Shown here one piece after another: positions 42,777-63,318 of a DNA stretch of 64,000 nt (the stretch's first letter is position 1; each line of letters begins with the position of its first letter). The DNA lies in the NCBI GenBank assembly GCA_002726205.1, contig PBSL01000013.1, positions 70,096 through 134,095 on the forward strand, written 5' to 3'. This DNA comes from Planctomycetaceae bacterium. GTDB lineage: Bacteria > Planctomycetota > Planctomycetia > Planctomycetales > Planctomycetaceae. Made by a program: the position numbers and the translations under genes. Under the pieces are notes generated by a model. The model worked only from the letters and a program-made list of their open reading frames with translations, made no database searches and was not told the DNA's origin.

Positions 42777-45730
42777 TCGCGATTCTGCGTGTGCTGCCTG
42801 TTGTCGTCCTGCTCGTGTTGCTGTCGGGAACCGGCCTTTCAGCCGCCGATCCACCGACCCGCCGGGTCGGCTGGACTTCCTCACAGGTCATCGGGACGCC
42901 CGAACCGCCCTCCCCCTACCTGGTCGAGCGTCGGTTTCCGAAGTTGAACTTCAAGAACCCCGTCGAAATGCGCCCGATCCCAGGCACCAACCGTCTGCTG
43001 GTCGTCGAATTGGGGGGCCGGATCTTTTCATTCCCGGACCGCCAGGACGTCGAAAAAGCCGACCTGATTCTCGACCTGAAACAGCACAAGCCCGCGGTGG
43101 CCAACACCTACGGACTCACCTTCCACCCGCAGTTCCTCAAGAATCGCACCTGTTTCATCTCCTATATCCAGGGCCCACAGGGCAACGGTACCAAGATCTG
43201 CCGCTACCGGTTCACCAAGTCCGATCCGCCGGTGATCGATCTTGCCAGCCGCGAGGTGGTCTTTTCGTGGCCCTCCGGCGGCCACAACGGCGCGGCGTTG
43301 CGTTTCGGCCCCGACGGTCTGCTCTACATCACCGCCGGGGACGGTGTCGGCCCGAATCCGCCCGACCCGGTCAACAACGGACAGGATTGCAGCAACTACT
43401 TCTCCACGCTCGTGCGAATCGACGTCGACCACACCGATCCCGGCCGCGCCTATCGCATTCCACCGGACAACCCGTTCGTCAACGTCGAAGGCGTGCTCCC
43501 GGAGATCTGGGCCTACGGCTTTCGTAATCCGTGGAAAATCTCATTTGACCGCAAATCCGGCGACTTGTGGCTCGGTGATGTCGGCTGGGAGCTCTGGGAG
43601 TTCATCTACCGGATCGTCAAGGGAGGCAACTACGGCTGGAGCATCGTCGAGGGGCGTCAACCGGTCAACACGCACTTCAAGCGCGGTCCCAGCCCGATAC
43701 TGCCTCCCACCGTCGACCACCCGCACAGCGAGGCGGCTTCGATCACCGGTGGTGAGGTTTACTACGGGCGTCGGACACCGGGACTTTTCGGACAATACGT
43801 CTACGGGGATTACGAGACCGGAAAACTCTGGTCGTTTGTCTGGAATGCCAAACAGAAGAAGGTCGTCAAGCATCGAGAACTGGTTGACTCGTCGCTGCGG
43901 ATCATCTGTTTCAGCTACGACACCACTGACGACCTCCTGTTCATGGATTACACGGCCGGCACAATCCATCGCCTGGCGCCCAATCCTGACCGTGGCAAGC
44001 CCAGCCGTTTTCCCAGGAGGCTCAGCCAGACGGGCCTGTTCGCATCCGTCGCCGACCACCGCGTGGCTGACGGTGTGCTCACCTACCAGGCCACGGCCGA
44101 ACCGTGGCAAGACGGATCGACCGCCGAGCGTGCGATCGCGGTTCCGGGAACCGCCCCGATCGGCACCAAGGGAAAGTGGTCGTTCCCGGCCGGCACGGTC
44201 GTCCTCAAGACGATCTCAATGCAAACGGCCGTCGCCAAACGCAACCAGCGACGCCGACTCGAAACACAACTCCTGCATTTCGACGGGGATGCCTGGCGAG
44301 GCTACAGCTATCGCTGGAACCGCGACCAGTCCGACGCGGTACTGTTGCCGCCAGCCGGCAAAGACGAAGCATTGCTGATCGCTGATGCCACGTTCAAGAA
44401 CGGATTGCGCAGGCAGACCTGGCATTTCTCGGGACGGGTCGAATGCGTGAGATGTCACAATCCGTGGGCCGGACACGTGCTGGGATTCAACCCCGCTGGC
44501 CTCGACCGGACCATTGACACTCCCTCCGGTGACACCAACCAGCTGGCCGCCCTTTCCCGCCACAATCTCTTCACACCGGCGTTGTCCCCCTCCTCGCAGC
44601 CACAACTGGTTGACCCCTATGACGAGACTCTCGACACCGAGCGTCGCGCAAGAAGCTATCTGCATGTCAATTGCGGTCATTGCCACCGATTGCACGCCGG
44701 CAGTGCCGTGTTGGCCTACATGCACCATGACATTTCGTTGACTGCGACCCGCATGCTCGACAGCAAGCCCAGCCAGGGAACCTTCGGGATTCCCGATGCC
44801 CGCATCATCGCGCCCGGCGACCCTCTGCGCAGCGTTCTGTTCCTGCGAGTTTCCAAGCTCGGCCGTGGCCGGATGCCCCATATCGGCTCGGAACGCGTCG
44901 ATCGTCGAGCAACCACGATGATTGGCAAGTGGATCTCTGAACTTCCCAACGACACCCCCATCGCCACACTCAGCGATGCCCAGCGTCGTTCCCGATTACA
45001 GGCTCTCATCGAGGTGCGACAACTCGAACGCGGTGCCAAGGCCATCCCTCAGGTAATGCTCAGCCGTGCTCTCGCGTCGACTTCAACCGCCTTGCACCTG
45101 CAACAAAGACTCGACGCAGCCGGCAACCGTTTCGCAGCGGAAACACGACGTGCAATCGTCAAGGCCGGCGTGACACATGACGACATCACGATCCGTGATC
45201 TCTTCGAGCGGTTCATTCCCGAAGAACAACGGGTGAAACGACTCGGGCGCGTCATTCGCCCCGAATCACTTCTGGCCCTCACCGGAAATGCCAAGACGGG
45301 GCGAGAGTTCTTTCTGACCTCGAAGGCATCACAGTGCCGCAATTGCCATCGTGTCGGCGGCGCGGGCAAATCGCTCGGCCCTGATCTCGACGGCATCGGC
45401 AAGAAATACGGTCGACCCGAGTTGCTCGACCAGGTCCTCAACCCGTCACGCAAGATCGACCCCAAGTTCATGACCTATCTCGTGGAGACAACAGCCGGGC
45501 GTGTTCACACCGGACTGATGATCCGCAAGACCGATCGAGAGATTGTTCTTCGCGACGCCAAGGGCAAGGAACTGGTGATTGCGAGTGGCGATGTGGAATC
45601 GCTGATCCCGCAACGCAAGAGTCTCATGCCCGAACTGCTCCTCAAGGACATGACCGCCCAACAGGTGGCCGATCTCCTGGCGTTCCTGGCCTCGCTGAAA
45701 GTGCCCGCGGCCAAGAGCACAACAAAGTGA
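42773..45730 (+). CDS. Propeller-cytochrome c paralogue of the preceding gene
   Basis: Translation begins at a GTG overlapping the previous stop (GTGA). The 985-residue product has a signal peptide (to about SAADPP) and the same order as its neighbour: a propeller with YGLTFHPQF, GGHNGAALRFGPDGLLYITAGDG and EIWAYGFRNPWKISFD, then heme sites CVRCH (558-562), CGHCH (634-638) and CRNCH (855-859) and an ending very like the neighbour's (KSLMPELLLKDMTAQQVADLL). The two are clearly tandem duplicates that have diverged, most in the linkers. They are translationally coupled and may form a heteromer, or oxidise different substrates. Confidence 0.9.
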   Translation: MIAILRVLPVVVLLVLLSGTGLSAADPPTRRVGWTSSQVIGTPEPPSPYLVERRFPKLNFKNPVEMRPIPGTNRLLVVELGGRIFSFPDRQDVEKADLILDLKQHKPAVANTYGLTFHPQFLKNRTCFISYIQGPQGNGTKICRYRFTKSDPPVIDLASREVVFSWPSGGHNGAALRFGPDGLLYITAGDGVGPNPPDPVNNGQDCSNYFSTLVRIDVDHTDPGRAYRIPPDNPFVNVEGVLPEIWAYGFRNPWKISFDRKSGDLWLGDVGWELWEFIYRIVKGGNYGWSIVEGRQPVNTHFKRGPSPILPPTVDHPHSEAASITGGEVYYGRRTPGLFGQYVYGDYETGKLWSFVWNAKQKKVVKHRELVDSSLRIICFSYDTTDDLLFMDYTAGTIHRLAPNPDRGKPSRFPRRLSQTGLFASVADHRVADGVLTYQATAEPWQDGSTAERAIAVPGTAPIGTKGKWSFPAGTVVLKTISMQTAVAKRNQRRRLETQLLHFDGDAWRGYSYRWNRDQSDAVLLPPAGKDEALLIADATFKNGLRRQTWHFSGRVECVRCHNPWAGHVLGFNPAGLDRTIDTPSGDTNQLAALSRHNLFTPALSPSSQPQLVDPYDETLDTERRARSYLHVNCGHCHRLHAGSAVLAYMHHDISLTATRMLDSKPSQGTFGIPDARIIAPGDPLRSVLFLRVSKLGRGRMPHIGSERVDRRATTMIGKWISELPNDTPIATLSDAQRRSRLQALIEVRQLERGAKAIPQVMLSRALASTSTALHLQQRLDAAGNRFAAETRRAIVKAGVTHDDITIRDLFERFIPEEQRVKRLGRVIRPESLLALTGNAKTGREFFLTSKASQCRNCHRVGGAGKSLGPDLDGIGKKYGRPELLDQVLNPSRKIDPKFMTYLVETTAGRVHTGLMIRKTDREIVLRDAKGKELVIASGDVESLIPQRKSLMPELLLKDMTAQQVADLLAFLASLKVPAAKSTTK

Positions 45731-45819
45731 CCAATCGCCGCCCAACGCGCAACGAAATCGAACACGGCCAGGCCCTCAGGGAATGCAGCGATCTCCTGAA
45801 ACCGGCCTGATCCGACGGC

Positions 45820-46782
45820 CTATCCCAGTTCCAGCTCTGCCAGCAAATTCTTCCAGGCCAACCGTTCGCATTCAGGCTCGAATTGCCATCGCCGCTCGGC
45901 ACACGCCGCCATCAGCGACTGGTAGAACTCCCGGTCCCCCTCGGCAGCCAACAGCATCCTCTGTAGCCCCGACGTATCCCCCACGTCGTAGAATCCCGGA
46001 TAGTCTTCTCCGAGCAAACCAATCGTACCGCTGATACGGCTCGCCACGACGGGGGTTTGCACCGAGATCGACTCACCCACGACGTTTGCGCCACCTTCCA
46101 TCCGTGAACTGAGGACCATCAGTTGGCTTCCGGCCAGCGTTTCCAGCACATCACCGTATCGCCGACTTCCCCGCCATTGGTATCGACGGTTTGCCCGAGT
46201 CTCTGCTTCGGCCGCGGATCTCAGTCCCGGTGTCAACGCTTCTCCAAGATGCACGACACGAATTCGCGAATTCCCCGGCAGATCGCGCACGGCATAGGCG
46301 GTCCGTAATGGATCCTTGACCGCTCGCAGGTGGCCGACCACGGCCACCTGCCACCATCGCTGAATACGGTTGGTTGTCCTGTTTCGTGGCTGCACCGACT
46401 GAAAGACCACGCGACAACGCTCTCTGCAGTGCTCCGGAAGCCAACGGATCCCGTCGGGTTGCAGAACGACAATGCGATCGGCGGTAGCCACCGCCTTCTG
46501 GCCTCCCCGTGATCGTTGCAGGTCACGATACAGGTCGGTCCCGCTGATGCCGACAATCAACGGGGCATCCGCACGACAGCGACGCCATCGCAGGGCGCTC
46601 GCGGCGCTATGATGCGCATGCAGAGCCACAAGCAGATCACAGCCCTGGTCAAGAAATTCGCCGCTGATCTGGGTGTGGTGCCCCAGTTGATTCAGCAACC
46701 GCCGCCAGCGGCGAGCCGTCGCAAGGTTGCCGCTGCGAGTCCGGGCCGCGGCGGGGGTCACGATCAGGATCTTGAGGCCCAT
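45820..46782 (-). CDS. senB: SenB-type selenosugar synthase (TIGR04348 glycosyltransferase family)
   Basis: The 320-residue product starts MGLKILIVTPAAARTRSGNLATARRW and has the family marks CDLLVALHAHHSA, ISGTDLYRDL, VVGHLRAVKDPLR, and SSRMEGGANVVGESI with GLLGEDYPGF. These are the landmarks I know for the TIGR04348 family, whose characterised member SenB joins selenophosphate and a UDP-sugar to make a selenosugar in selenoneine biosynthesis. The gene starts 7 bases after selD, whose product makes selenophosphate, which strongly supports the call. The frame is open for 43 more codons upstream but these lie inside selD. The SenA enzyme that would complete selenoneine is not in the window. Confidence 0.82.
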   Translation of the reverse strand: MGLKILIVTPAAARTRSGNLATARRWRRLLNQLGHHTQISGEFLDQGCDLLVALHAHHSAASALRWRRCRADAPLIVGISGTDLYRDLQRSRGGQKAVATADRIVVLQPDGIRWLPEHCRERCRVVFQSVQPRNRTTNRIQRWWQVAVVGHLRAVKDPLRTAYAVRDLPGNSRIRVVHLGEALTPGLRSAAEAETRANRRYQWRGSRRYGDVLETLAGSQLMVLSSRMEGGANVVGESISVQTPVVASRISGTIGLLGEDYPGFYDVGDTSGLQRMLLAAEGDREFYQSLMAACAERRWQFEPECERLAWKNLLAELELG

Positions 46783-46789
46783 CGATCGG

Positions 46790-47845
46790 CTAGTCATCCA
46801 AGACCAGGAACACGTCAGTTTTCTCGACGACGCGGCCCACAATCGCCGCTGTTTCAGATCCGCCTTCCCGGCAGCTTGCGACGAGATGCTCGGCGTCTTC
46901 GGCACGAACACTGATCAACAGGCCCCCGGAGGTCTGGGGGTCAAAGCACATTTCCAACCGCATCGGATCGGCGCCGGCCTGGATCTGCATCAGTGAGTCG
47001 GCCGCATTACGATTTGTCTGGCTGGCCCGCGTGTGGTAGCCGGCAGCAGCCAGTTCCGCTGCGCCGGGCAGAACCGCCAGACATGACGTTTCGATGACGA
47101 GCGTCACATCGCTCGCCTGCGCCATTTCCCCCGCATGTCCTGCCAGGCCAAACCCGGTGATGTCTGTTGCCGCAGAGGCCTTCACACCGCGTGCGGATTC
47201 ACTGGCTCCCTTGTTGAGCATCGCCATGCTCGCTGTCGCCGTAGCCAGTACATTCCCCGGACAGCGGTTCTTCTTGAATGCCGTCGTGATGAATCCGGTC
47301 CCCAGGGGCTTGGTCAACACGAGTCGATCACCTGGTTGGGCGCCCGAGTTGGTAATGAGTTCATCGGGGGTTGCCACCCCGGTGACACTCAATCCGTATT
47401 TGATCTCGGTGTCTCGCACGGTATGCCCTCCGGCAATCACCGCGCCAGCAGCTTTGACACGTTCAGCTCCTCCATTGAGGATCTCTCCAAGAATCTCGAG
47501 GTCGAGCTTGTCGTCGGGAAAACCGACGATATTCAGCGCCGTCCTGGGTTGCCCCCCCATGGCGAAAATGTCGCTGAGGCTGTTGGCGGCGGCAATTTGA
47601 CCAAACAGGTACGGGTCATCGACCAGTGGTGGAAAAAAGTCCAGTGACTGCAGAATCAGCAGATCGTCACGCAACCGGTAAACGCCGGCATCACTGAACC
47701 CTTCGGCTCCGACCACCAGGTTCGGATCGTCGAAGACCGGCAAACCCCGCACGACCTGTGCGGTCCCCTCTTGGGGTAATTTCCCGGCTCACCCTGCGCA
47801 ACTGGCCCAATCGACCAGTCGCTTCTTGCGTCCAAAGATTGCCAT
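46790..47845 (-). CDS. selD: Selenide, water dikinase SelD with selenocysteine (in-frame UGA)
   Basis: SelD makes selenophosphate from selenide and ATP. From the ATG at 47845 the frame reads MAIFGRKKRLVDWASCAG, then TGA (47791-47789), then AGKLPQEGTAQVVRGLP and continues as a typical SelD (DPNLVVG, IAAANSLSDIFAMGG, GGHTVRDTEIKYGL, TDITGFGLAGH, DPQTSGGLL). The UGA aligns with catalytic Cys17 of E. coli SelD and is followed three residues later by the essential lysine (Lys22 here), so it is read as Sec19; the product has 351 residues. A GTG at 47752 would give a shorter protein lacking the active site. An AGGA lies 9 bases before the ATG, and a SECIS-like hairpin at 47747-47763 supports recoding. 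Confidence 0.92.
47747..47763 (-). promoter_or_regulatory. Bacterial SECIS-like hairpin in selD
   Basis: On the minus strand CCGCAC, loop AGGTC, GTGCGG form a perfect 6-bp stem whose loop starts 32 bases after the UGA. Bacterial SECIS elements need a stem-loop just downstream of the UGA with a G among the first bases of the loop, at about 16-37 bases. A competing weaker hairpin (CCCC-AAGA-GGGG) lies just upstream. Confidence 0.65.
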
Positions 47846-47893
47846 CGAGAAATGTCCTGCGGTGGATGATCAGCCTGCAGACGGTTGGGCCGG

Positions 47894-47922
47894 ATTGTAG
47901 CCCGCATGTCCCCGACGACCAA
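47894..47922 (-). promoter_or_regulatory. Probable selD-senB promoter
   Basis: TTGGTC (47922-47917) and TACAAT (47899-47894) are separated by 17 bases on the minus strand and lie 48 bases upstream of the selD ATG. The -10 matches the consensus at 5 of 6 positions, the -35 less well. Confidence 0.5.
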
Positions 47923-47940
47923 CAGCGGATCCGCCACGTT

Positions 47941-47969
47941 TTGACAGCTTCATCGCGGCTGTCTATTCT
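47941..47969 (+). promoter_or_regulatory. Probable promoter of the SDR gene
   Basis: A consensus TTGACA (47941-47946), a 17-base spacer and TATTCT (47964-47969) lie 94 bases before the SDR start. This is the best sigma70-type match noticed in the window. It faces away from the selD promoter, 18 bases apart. Confidence 0.6.
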
Positions 47970-48063
47970 CCGGTGTGTTCCACCAGCTCGCGGCCCGTGG
48001 CGTCTTTGGCTTGAATTATCACCGCGGTGACGCGGCTCGACGACCTCGAAAGGACCAAGCACA

Positions 48064-48840
48064 ATGTCTCTGCAAGGCCAAGTGGCGGTCGTAACCGGTG
48101 GCGGCCGGGGTATCGGCCTGGCGTGCGTTCGGGCTTTGGCCCGTGATGGTGCCTCCGTGATCATCGCGACTCCCGAGGACGATGAACGTCTCGCGGCCGT
48201 CGAGGAACTGCAGTCCCGCGGAGTGGACGTGTTGGGGACAGACACCGACGTGACCTGCGAAGAACAGGTGGCTTCGATGGTCGCACAGGCCAGTGACCGA
48301 TTCGGCCGCATCGACATCCTTGTCAACAATGCCGGCATCATCGGCCCCACCTCGCCTGTCCAGGAAATCCAGCGCCGTGACTGGGATCAGGTCATGGCGG
48401 TCAACGTGACCGGCAGCTACCTGTGCTGTCGCGAGGTTCTGCCCGGAATGATCACTCGACAATCCGGACGGATCATCAATATTGCCTCCACGGCGGGCAA
48501 GATCGGATTCCCGCTGCGAAGTCCGTATGCCGCATCGAAGTGGGCAGTGATCGGATTGACCAAGACACTGGCCGCCGAGGTCGGGCGGCAGGGAATCCTG
48601 GTCAACGCGGTTTGCCCAGGCCCGATTGCCGGCCCTCGCATGGACGCGATCATCGCGGCTCGTGCGGAGAAGACCGGAACACCCGCCGAGGACGTACGCG
48701 CGACCCTCGAGGAATCGACCCTGCTGGGACGATTGATACCGCCCGAGCACATCGCAGAGATGGTCACCTTTCTTGCCTCCGATCGCGCCACCAGTATCAC
48801 CGGGCAGACCCTCGACGTCACCGCCGGGCACCGTGTCTAG
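48064..48840 (+). CDS. Short-chain dehydrogenase/reductase (FabG-like)
   Basis: The 258-residue protein is a classical SDR: cofactor loop GGGRGIG (residues about 12-18), NNAG near 90, a catalytic serine in NIASTAG, YAASK with the catalytic Tyr and Lys, and NAVCPGPIAGPRM after it. It resembles 3-oxoacyl-ACP reductases and sugar-alcohol dehydrogenases; substrate and cofactor (NAD or NADP) cannot be told from sequence. The gene is followed after 37 bases by a carboxymuconolactone-decarboxylase-family gene on the same strand, a pairing found in catabolic operons. An AGGA lies 10 bases before the ATG. Confidence 0.9.
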   Translation: MSLQGQVAVVTGGGRGIGLACVRALARDGASVIIATPEDDERLAAVEELQSRGVDVLGTDTDVTCEEQVASMVAQASDRFGRIDILVNNAGIIGPTSPVQEIQRRDWDQVMAVNVTGSYLCCREVLPGMITRQSGRIINIASTAGKIGFPLRSPYAASKWAVIGLTKTLAAEVGRQGILVNAVCPGPIAGPRMDAIIAARAEKTGTPAEDVRATLEESTLLGRLIPPEHIAEMVTFLASDRATSITGQTLDVTAGHRV

Positions 48841-59638: not shown

Positions 59639-62600
59639 ATGGCAAGCACCACACCACACGGCCAGACTCGTTACGTCGATTTTGACCAATATGTGGATTC
59701 AAAACTCAGCGGAACCCGCTCCGCAATTCGCTCGACCGATGTCATGTCGGCGATTGTCGCTTCATCAGTCCTGGTGCTGACCTACCTGGTCCTGTTCATC
59801 ATCGCCGACCACTGGATCAGCACGCGTTTCCTGTCTCCCACAACTCGCTTGGTGCTGGGGTTCACCACCCTGGGAACCGCCGTGGTCTGGTGCGGTTGGC
59901 GGATTGGCCTCCCCCATCGCCGTCGCGTCAGTCGACTCTACGCGGCCTGGGAAATCGAGGAATCCGAACCGTCTCTCCAAAGCAACCTGCTCAACCTTGT
60001 TGACCTGCAAGACGCCAAGCGAGATGTCTCCCCCGACGTCATCCACTCGATAGAAAAGCGGGCAGCCGTTGGTCTCTCGCAGACCAATCTCGACTCCACC
60101 GTCGATCGCCGCCAGCTGATGCGCATTTCCTACGTGCTGTTGAGCCTGGTCGTTGTTGCCTGCATCTACACACTGTTCTCTCCTAAACCCATCGGGCCAT
60201 CACTGCTGCGGGCCTTCGGCTCTTTCAGTGCGGTGCCGACACGCACCCGGATTGAACAGATCCAGGTGCAGACTGCCGGCGATGACACACAGGTGGACGC
60301 CAGCACGTCGCCGGTAGTTCCCGCCGGCTTCCAGCCCACGATCACCGCCGTCGTCCGCGGCTCTCTGGCCGAACAGGATCACGTCACACTCTATTACACG
60401 ACAGCTGACGAACGGTTCGTTGATCAGCAACTTCAGATGAAGCCGGTCAGCGATACCCTGGCCACGTTTGCGTCGCGTGAATTCTCCACTGCGTTGATCG
60501 GAGAAAATGATCGCGGCCTGCTTCAGGATGTCCGTTTCCATATCACGGCCGGTGACGCTCGAAGCGAAACCTTCACCATCCGCGTCTCGACCGCTCCCTC
60601 CACAACTGTCACCTCCGTCGACTTCGCCTACCCCGAGTACATGCAACTGGACCCGGAATCAAACGATGGTGGAAATGTTGATGCCTGGGAAGGGACCACC
60701 GTCACCTTCCACGCCACCGCATCACGCCCGGTACGCTCTGCTCGCCTTGTCTTCTCTGATACCGAAGACACGTCCCAGCGTGCTGAAGAAACGGCAATGC
60801 GAATTACCAACGGCACCACGTTGACCGGCCATTGGCGACTCTCTTTTCGTGGCTCCGACCAGGAAGACTACCCCCGGTTCTATCGCATTGTCTGCAAGAA
60901 CGCCGACGGCGCTATCGATCTGCAGCCAACCCTGTATTCCATTGCCATTCGCCCAGACAAGCCCCCCGAAGTCGAGCTGCTTTCACCCCGGCAGGATCTG
61001 GAATTACCGTCAAACGCCGTGTTGCCCCTTCTCATCCGCGCACGTGACCCGGACTTCCAACTCCGCTACCTCACCCTGCGCGTCGAAAAGGACGGCAAGC
61101 AACTCCCCGAGCACAACCGCGAGTTGTTTTCCGGACAGCAGTCGGCTTTCGGGCCGTCCTCGATTGATTTTGCCTTGAAGCCCCTCGCCCTCAACCCGGG
61201 CGACACGATCAGCTACTGGATCGAGGCACGTGACAACAAGATGCCGGTCGGTAACCGTACCAACACCGCCCCCAAATTGAACATCCGTATCACCGAACCC
61301 GTCAGCCCCGATGAAGTCAAAAAGCAGCGGGACCAGGCCAGAAAACAACAAGAAAAGGCCGTCCAAGACGCCCGGCGCCAACAAGACGAACCTGAGTCAG
61401 ACGACACCTCCTCGCCTCAACCCGACGACACCAACCGACCTGGCGAGCCTGACCCGCCCCCAGGTGAATCCCCGGAGGCGAAGGAACCGCCGGCGAATGA
61501 CCCAGAAAGCAAACCCGAGCAGAAGGACTCCGAGGACAAGCAGCCTCGAGGAGGCGATGACCCACAACAGGGCGACAGCAACGGGTCTGACCAGAAGGGC
61601 AATTCGTCCAAGAGCGATGGGAAAGACAAGGGCGAAACCAACGGCCAGAAGTCCGACTCCGGTGAGAAGTCCCCCTCCGGGAACAAGGACGGTCGCCAAC
61701 CCGATCGCAAGCCTCTCAGTAAAGACGGATCCGATGACGACGAGGCCATCAAGCGGATTCGTGACCATCAGCGCAAGAAGGAGCCTGGTGACTCGAACTC
61801 CTCACCCGAGCGTAAACCAGAAGACGGTTCTTCCCAACCGCCCTCGCCCGCAAAGGGAGATCAGAAGGGATCCGGCGCCGACGCCAACAAGAAGGGCGAC
61901 CCTGGCAACTCACAGACGTCTGACAAGAACAAGAAGGATGCCAAGCCGTCGTCCAAACCGATGAAGAAGTCCACAGGACCAAAGCGTCCTGATGACGCCA
62001 AAGACCGTCCGACGCCCAAAGCCGGAAAGGGAAATCAGGCCAAGTCGAAGAAGAACCAGAAGGATGGCGCCGCGAAGGCTTCAAGCGGGGATTCGAAACA
62101 GGAGAAGCCTGGCAACAAGAAGACCGCCCCCGCATCCAAGTCAAAAAGCGGCGACAGTGGCACCAGGAAACCATCCGCGAAGAGCAAGTCCGACGCCAGT
62201 GATCCCAAGGCGAAGAATCCCTCCTCCAAACAACCCGCCCAAAAGGGAAAACCCAAACCCGGCACCGGTTCGAGCAAGAGTGGGGATTCGGGCCAGTCCG
62301 GCGACGAGCCGAACAAGGACGGCAAGAAGAAATCAACTGCCAACAAGAAGGGCAGCGGCGACTCCCCCTCTTCCTCCCCGGAGGGAAAGAAGAAGGGCGT
62401 TTCCTCCGGAAAGAAACCGGAGGGTTCAAAGAAAAAGGGGGGAAGCGGAAGTGGAAAGAAGGGCGCCGGCGAATCTGGATCCAAGGCCGGGAAACCATCG
62501 GCTCAGAGCGACAAGCCCGGGGAAGGAACTGCCGGCACCGAATCGAAAACCGGGACCGGCGGCACCGGCGCCCGGCCGGGAACAAACGACCAGGGAGAAG

Positions 62601-63082
62601 ACCCAACGGGCAAGCCGGACGGGAAGCCAGGCCAGGCCCGAGATGCCGAAGGTGGCGAGGATCCGGTCAATGAAGCATTCACCAAGCAGGCCGCCAACCT
62701 GGTCCTCAAACGAATTGAAGACGACTTGAGACGTGGCAAAGTCGATCCAGAACTCCTCAAACGGCTGGGATGGAACAAGGACGACATGAAGAAATTCTCC
62801 AGTCGCCTTCGTAAGCAACTCGACACACCCGACTCCGACAGCACTCCCGAAGCGAACGCGCGACGCCGGCAGCTCGATGAACTGCTCAAGAGCGTCAACG
62901 TTCCCTCTCGCGGTGCACGACGAGTGGGCCGATCCAAACGGAAGCGCACTACTGACGCGTTGAATGCCCAGGATCTGCCGGTCCCCTTGCAATTCCGAGA
63001 GGCCGTCAAGTTGTATCGGCGAAACCTGACGCGCCGAAAGTCCGCCACCCCCCCAAAGGGCGGCGGACGACGTTCACCCTGA
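59639..63082 (+). CDS. Large membrane protein with lysine/serine/glycine-rich low-complexity region
   Basis: The 1147-residue product has membrane segments near 35-58, 70-92 and 162-180. After the third follows an extracytoplasmic part of about 350 residues with beta-rich, Ig-like stretches (FAYPEYMQL..., then PPEVELLSPRQDLELPSNAVLPLLIRARDPDFQL). A region from about 550 to 1010 is almost only K, S, G, D, P, E, N and Q. A short ordered C-terminus (AFTKQAANLVLKRIEDDLRRGKVDPELLKRLGWNKDDMKKF) closes it. The first half resembles large planctomycete membrane proteins of the DUF4175 kind. The C-terminal segment recalls the end of such proteins, but no function is known. SD not obvious; the start is the first ATG of the frame. 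Confidence 0.82.
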   Translation: MASTTPHGQTRYVDFDQYVDSKLSGTRSAIRSTDVMSAIVASSVLVLTYLVLFIIADHWISTRFLSPTTRLVLGFTTLGTAVVWCGWRIGLPHRRRVSRLYAAWEIEESEPSLQSNLLNLVDLQDAKRDVSPDVIHSIEKRAAVGLSQTNLDSTVDRRQLMRISYVLLSLVVVACIYTLFSPKPIGPSLLRAFGSFSAVPTRTRIEQIQVQTAGDDTQVDASTSPVVPAGFQPTITAVVRGSLAEQDHVTLYYTTADERFVDQQLQMKPVSDTLATFASREFSTALIGENDRGLLQDVRFHITAGDARSETFTIRVSTAPSTTVTSVDFAYPEYMQLDPESNDGGNVDAWEGTTVTFHATASRPVRSARLVFSDTEDTSQRAEETAMRITNGTTLTGHWRLSFRGSDQEDYPRFYRIVCKNADGAIDLQPTLYSIAIRPDKPPEVELLSPRQDLELPSNAVLPLLIRARDPDFQLRYLTLRVEKDGKQLPEHNRELFSGQQSAFGPSSIDFALKPLALNPGDTISYWIEARDNKMPVGNRTNTAPKLNIRITEPVSPDEVKKQRDQARKQQEKAVQDARRQQDEPESDDTSSPQPDDTNRPGEPDPPPGESPEAKEPPANDPESKPEQKDSEDKQPRGGDDPQQGDSNGSDQKGNSSKSDGKDKGETNGQKSDSGEKSPSGNKDGRQPDRKPLSKDGSDDDEAIKRIRDHQRKKEPGDSNSSPERKPEDGSSQPPSPAKGDQKGSGADANKKGDPGNSQTSDKNKKDAKPSSKPMKKSTGPKRPDDAKDRPTPKAGKGNQAKSKKNQKDGAAKASSGDSKQEKPGNKKTAPASKSKSGDSGTRKPSAKSKSDASDPKAKNPSSKQPAQKGKPKPGTGSSKSGDSGQSGDEPNKDGKKKSTANKKGSGDSPSSSPEGKKKGVSSGKKPEGSKKKGGSGSGKKGAGESGSKAGKPSAQSDKPGEGTAGTESKTGTGGTGARPGTNDQGEDPTGKPDGKPGQARDAEGGEDPVNEAFTKQAANLVLKRIEDDLRRGKVDPELLKRLGWNKDDMKKFSSRLRKQLDTPDSDSTPEANARRRQLDELLKSVNVPSRGARRVGRSKRKRTTDALNAQDLPVPLQFREAVKLYRRNLTRRKSATPPKGGGRRSP

Positions 63083-63102
63083 ACCTCTTGAGGAGTTCGA
63101 CG

Positions 63103-63318
63103 TTGGAAATCTCCATCACATACTGCCATCAATGAAACTACGAACCGCAGGCGGCCGGTCTGGCCGCGGCAATCAAGGATCATTGCGGCGTTGACGCAAC
63201 CCTGGTACCCGGCGCCGGAGGCATTTTTGACGTGGTCGCCGACGGCAAGCTCATCTTCAGTAAGCACGAAGTCGAACGCTTCCCAGAACACGACGAAATC
63301 CTCGGCCAGCTTCAATAG
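63103..63318 (+). CDS. SelW/Rdx-family selenoprotein with CxxU motif (in-frame UGA)
   Basis: From a TTG (63103) 7 bases after AGGAG, a 72-codon frame contains one TGA (63133-63135) and ends in TAG. Read with Sec, it begins LEISITYCHQUNYEPQA and continues with LVPGAGGIFDVVADGKLIFSK and RFPEHDEIL, the SelT/W/H (Rdx) family pattern: an N-terminal CxxU redox motif, a central G.FDV strand and FSK....RFP. Cys8 and Sec11 form the motif. The 71-residue length is normal. The family is thioredoxin-like and acts in redox reactions, possibly with glutathione; exact partners are unknown. Without recoding only ten residues would be made. The hairpin at 63151-63167 fits a bacterial SECIS. No ATG start exists in frame. 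Confidence 0.9.
63151..63167 (+). promoter_or_regulatory. Bacterial SECIS-like hairpin in the SelW-like gene
   Basis: GCGGCC, loop GGTCT, GGCCGC form a perfect 6-bp stem. The loop begins 22 bases after the UGA and starts with G, as bacterial SECIS elements require. The loop shares GGTC with the hairpin in selD. Confidence 0.75.

Follow-up and report, generated by a model that had tools for sequence, protein, structure and literature searches.

Small selenoproteins of the SelW-like type carrying a CxxU redox motif have been described repeatedly in bacteria, from the Sargasso Sea (PMC1088965), from complete genomes (PMC1794560) and from the GOS data, in which they form the most abundant selenoprotein family, with 427 selenocysteine (Sec) as compared to 56 cysteine (Cys) forms (PMC2398784). 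A 2026 review lists the family (PF10262, CxxU) as "predicted with high confidence" (PMC13188914). The window analysed here, a stretch of 64,000 nucleotides, holds a gene at positions 63103-63318 of the plus strand which shares with the bacterial SelW-like/Rdx family (PF10262, NF041051, TIGR02174) its size, the CxxU motif, the downstream sequence marks, the fold and a SECIS element just past the UGA codon. There is no difference of substance; the gene in the window begins with TTG, the family members usually with ATG. CxxU and a bacterial SECIS are likewise common to this gene and the Sargasso Sea and GOS proteins (PMC1088965, PMC2398784). Those were derived from metagenomic reads, whereas the present gene is placed in a planctomycete-type draft genome together with its Sec machinery. 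In the literature searched we found no paper specifically on planctomycete SelW. The gene is thus one more member of a well-known bacterial family and a range extension at most. Its practical consequence is the corrected annotation of one gene. An earlier note on this DNA, made from its letters alone, had called such a gene invisible to ordinary ORF calling. This applies to plain ORF finding, by which none was listed, but not to published homology methods, which have been detecting the family from 2005-2008 onwards; a curated NCBI model for it also exists.

The 71 amino acid frame begins with TTG and ends with TAG. Its translation, with UGA read as a residue, is LEISITYCHQUNYEPQAAGLAAAIKDHCGVDATLVPGAGGIFDVVADGKLIFSKHEVERFPEHDEILGQLQ*. 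It scored 65 bits against Pfam Rdx PF10262 (cutoff 22.6, E=7e-18), 89.3 against NCBIfam NF041051 "SelT/SelW/SelH family (seleno)protein" (cutoff 88) and 52.3 against TIGR02174 (cutoff 34.2), in agreement with the family membership proposed earlier. Sequence matches in the PDB were SelW-related, MIEN1 or unnamed hypothetical proteins. The redox motif C8-H-Q-U11 lies near the N terminus, and both of its columns show no variation among 46 sequences when U is counted as C. Residue 11, the second redox position, corresponds to the sole in-frame TGA (63133-63135), the single UGA in YCHQU that the earlier note had described. The G.F[DE]V and FSK...RFP marks follow downstream, as in the known SelW-like family.

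Regarding translation initiation, a GAGGAG ribosome-binding site, read directly at 63090-63095 of the plus strand, precedes the TTG at 63103 with a spacer of 7 nt, which bears out the good site claimed before. An alternative in-frame TTG at 63088 lacks proper spacing to a ribosome-binding site. Among the 92 UGA-containing homologues described below, the codon ten codons ahead of the UGA is ATG in 69, TTG in three and GTG in two, and purine runs resembling a ribosome-binding site stand ahead of the same start codon in relatives. Since most relatives share the start position, the start site proposed in the earlier note is supported, whereas the TTG codon itself is unusual, a choice of this species where most relatives have ATG. 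The weak start codon is a point against the Sec reading.

SelW was searched for in six frames in the genomes of relatives (119 genomes), and 71 loci were taken from a species collection covering Planctomycetota, Deltaproteobacteria, Zixiibacteriota, Acidobacteria, Campylobacterota and others. At the position of the selW UGA, 92 distinct homologues from many phyla likewise have UGA, and five have Cys. The conservation of the UGA in relatives, a check proposed with the earlier note, was thus confirmed. The nearest orthologue, in genome G054, is 83% identical and has the UGA. SelA was present in all 36 genomes with a UGA-containing SelW as compared to 23 of the 83 others (119 searched; Fisher p=4e-15), and was missing in six of the seven genomes having the Cys form only. 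The match to Pfam Rdx (E=7e-18), the 83% identical UGA orthologue and the UGA in 92 homologues together amount to more than chance.

Two readings which would remove the selenocysteine can be weighed against these data. If UGA were an ordinary stop, the frame beyond it would be the decayed remnant of a pseudogenised Cys-type SelW; translation table 11 indeed ends the frame after ten codons, and Cys homologues exist. Yet 92 distinct homologues retain the UGA and continue beyond it in an open, conserved frame, SelA being present in all of the genomes where this was tested, and neither the loop-codon bias nor the stem covariation described below would last in pseudogenes, so that we consider this reading hardly credible. 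A sequencing or assembly error which turned TGC or TGT into TGA is possible in principle in a draft genome of 76 contigs. However, the 83% identical gene elsewhere has the same UGA, as do the independent assemblies UBA9460 and RS395, whose SelW are 80-84% identical, and an error is equally improbable. Most naturally, and almost certainly, positions 63103-63318 are to be read as a genuine SelW-like (Rdx family) selenoprotein gene that looks functional and whose UGA is predicted to be decoded as Sec.

The apical hairpin of a bacterial SECIS lies at 63151-63167 of the plus strand, composed of a 6 bp stem (63151-63156/63162-63167, GCGGCC/GGCCGC) and the loop GGUCU (63157-63161). It begins 15 nt past the UGA. 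Published bSECIS criteria (PMC13188914) are a loop of 3-9 nt with a G in its first two bases, located 16-37 nt after the UGA, a stem of 4-16 bp and a minimum free energy of at most -7.5; with its 5-nt loop located 21 nt past the UGA and its 6 bp stem, the selW hairpin agrees with all of them, the energy being -15.4 kcal/mol for a 39-nt core and -20.7 for 58 nt. As compared to synonymous-codon shuffles of this one sequence the energy was not unusual (z=-0.89). Single-sequence energy is therefore uninformative, and the evidence for a SECIS element, which the earlier note had proposed from the hairpin, is comparative and strong.

The loop G is kept in 91 and the loop U in 85 of the 92 homologues. 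Where the loop codon specifies Ser it is AGT in 54 of 54 cases, against 24 of 335 Ser codons elsewhere in the same genes, and where it specifies Gly it is GGT in 23 of 25 cases against 105 of 515 elsewhere. The loop G and U are hence kept against codon preference. In four of the seven pairs of the stem both sides have changed, above the level of shuffles and slid controls, and 32 cells with both-side changes were counted against 7.6 in shuffles; the stem thus shows compensatory changes. A covariance model constructed with this genome left out had the selW UGA as its sole significant match in the 64-kb window (62.9 bits, E=1.7e-15, a score that partly reflects protein homology). Rfam at gathering threshold gave no match over the window, and a lax Rfam scan of the selW locus returned chance matches only.

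Concerning the machinery for Sec incorporation, contig C76 of the genome carries selA (510 bits) and selB (354 bits), separated by about 100 bases, and the genome also has a tRNA-Sec with a UCA anticodon. The one selD above cutoff in the genome, encoding selenophosphate synthetase (TIGR00476, 353 bits), is located in the window at 46790-47845 on the minus strand. It holds one UGA, within the motif CAGU (codon 47791-47789), and has a bSECIS-like hairpin with the loop AGGUC 31 nt past this UGA. On these features selD is a second predicted selenoprotein gene within the window; plain ORF calling clips it by placing the start at 47752. A scan of the window for further CxxU or UxxC frames with hairpins left selD and selW as the sole credible ones, and the formate dehydrogenase model TIGR01553 gave no match above cutoff. 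The Sec trait of this genome hence serves at least SelD and SelW. The complete genomic Sec machinery, like the family, the fold, the conserved UGA and the conserved SECIS, was established computationally; that Sec is actually inserted and that SelW acts in redox chemistry we infer.

In the proposed mechanism, SelD would supply activated selenium and the ribosome would start at the TTG at 63103. The SECIS hairpin would recruit SelB with Sec-tRNA(Sec), by which the UGA at codon 11 would be decoded as selenocysteine. The product is expected to be a small thiol/selenol oxidoreductase of thioredoxin-like fold, in which C and U of the CxxU motif form the redox pair. An AlphaFold model of SelW built from 32 relatives reached a mean pLDDT of 90.6. 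Its best PDB structure matches, the bacterial proteins 2fa8, 2obk and 2p0g, were all SelW-related (TM 0.90-0.93, identity 26-33%), and mouse SelW 2npb gave a TM of 0.74. The modelled product fits the thioredoxin-like fold of the SelW type, shared with 2fa8, 2obk and 2p0g. These three are Cys-containing proteins that carry CxxC where SelW of the window has CxxU.

The gene preceding selW (59639-63082, same strand) ends 20 bases upstream of it and encodes a large low-complexity protein; a permease-like gene follows downstream. The two nearest relatives retain both neighbours, and some others retain parts of them. Neither neighbour is linked to selenium or hints at a specific role. In some relatives the surroundings are of another kind. 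In the class-level relative G077 (L131, 2133-7074), selW heads the array selW-selD(Sec)-selB-selA on one strand, and in the planctomycete relatives G087, G104 and G115 selD follows it immediately. If SelW were not a general redox protein but dedicated to selenium metabolism, with selenide or selenium being handled for SelD, this would account for the G077 array and for the place of selW just ahead of selD in at least three further relatives. On the other hand, about 15 kb separate selW from selD in the genome of the window, a sel gene was seen in the examined flanks of only 3 of 94 UGA loci, plus G087, and the linked SelW proteins, at about 32-40% identity, belong to a more distant type. A common control by selenium may be all that the co-location reflects. 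For these reasons we regard a dedicated partner as unlikely, and it is a shade less likely still that planctomycete SelW-like selenoproteins act inside selenium metabolism, where they would feed SelD as a carrier of selenium or as a reductant. The linkage of selW and selD in relatives is a small, testable hint at the role of bacterial SelW; for the protein of the window a general redox function remains the preferred reading.

The window also contains a gene for the selenosugar synthase SenB (45820-46776, minus strand; TIGR04348, 354 bits, cutoff 300), which starts 13 bases after selD on the same strand. SenB was present in nine of 119 genomes, so that a single selD probably feeds Sec and selenosugar alike. 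Around the selD-SenB pair (43000-48300) no SenA-like large ORF was listed; one sugar-dehydrogenase-like and one SDR-like ORF are its neighbours. The SenB frame of G087 (L127, G087:C191:6446-7402, minus strand) has a single TGA close to the N-terminal end (MPRLUIACPAPP). This codon was rejected as a Sec candidate, as it falls in an apparent first beta strand and at no obvious redox position, and an error or a start-site problem is the likelier explanation. At the other end of the window, one frame (1-22449, minus strand) stays open for at least 7483 codons and runs off the window, which makes its product a giant protein.
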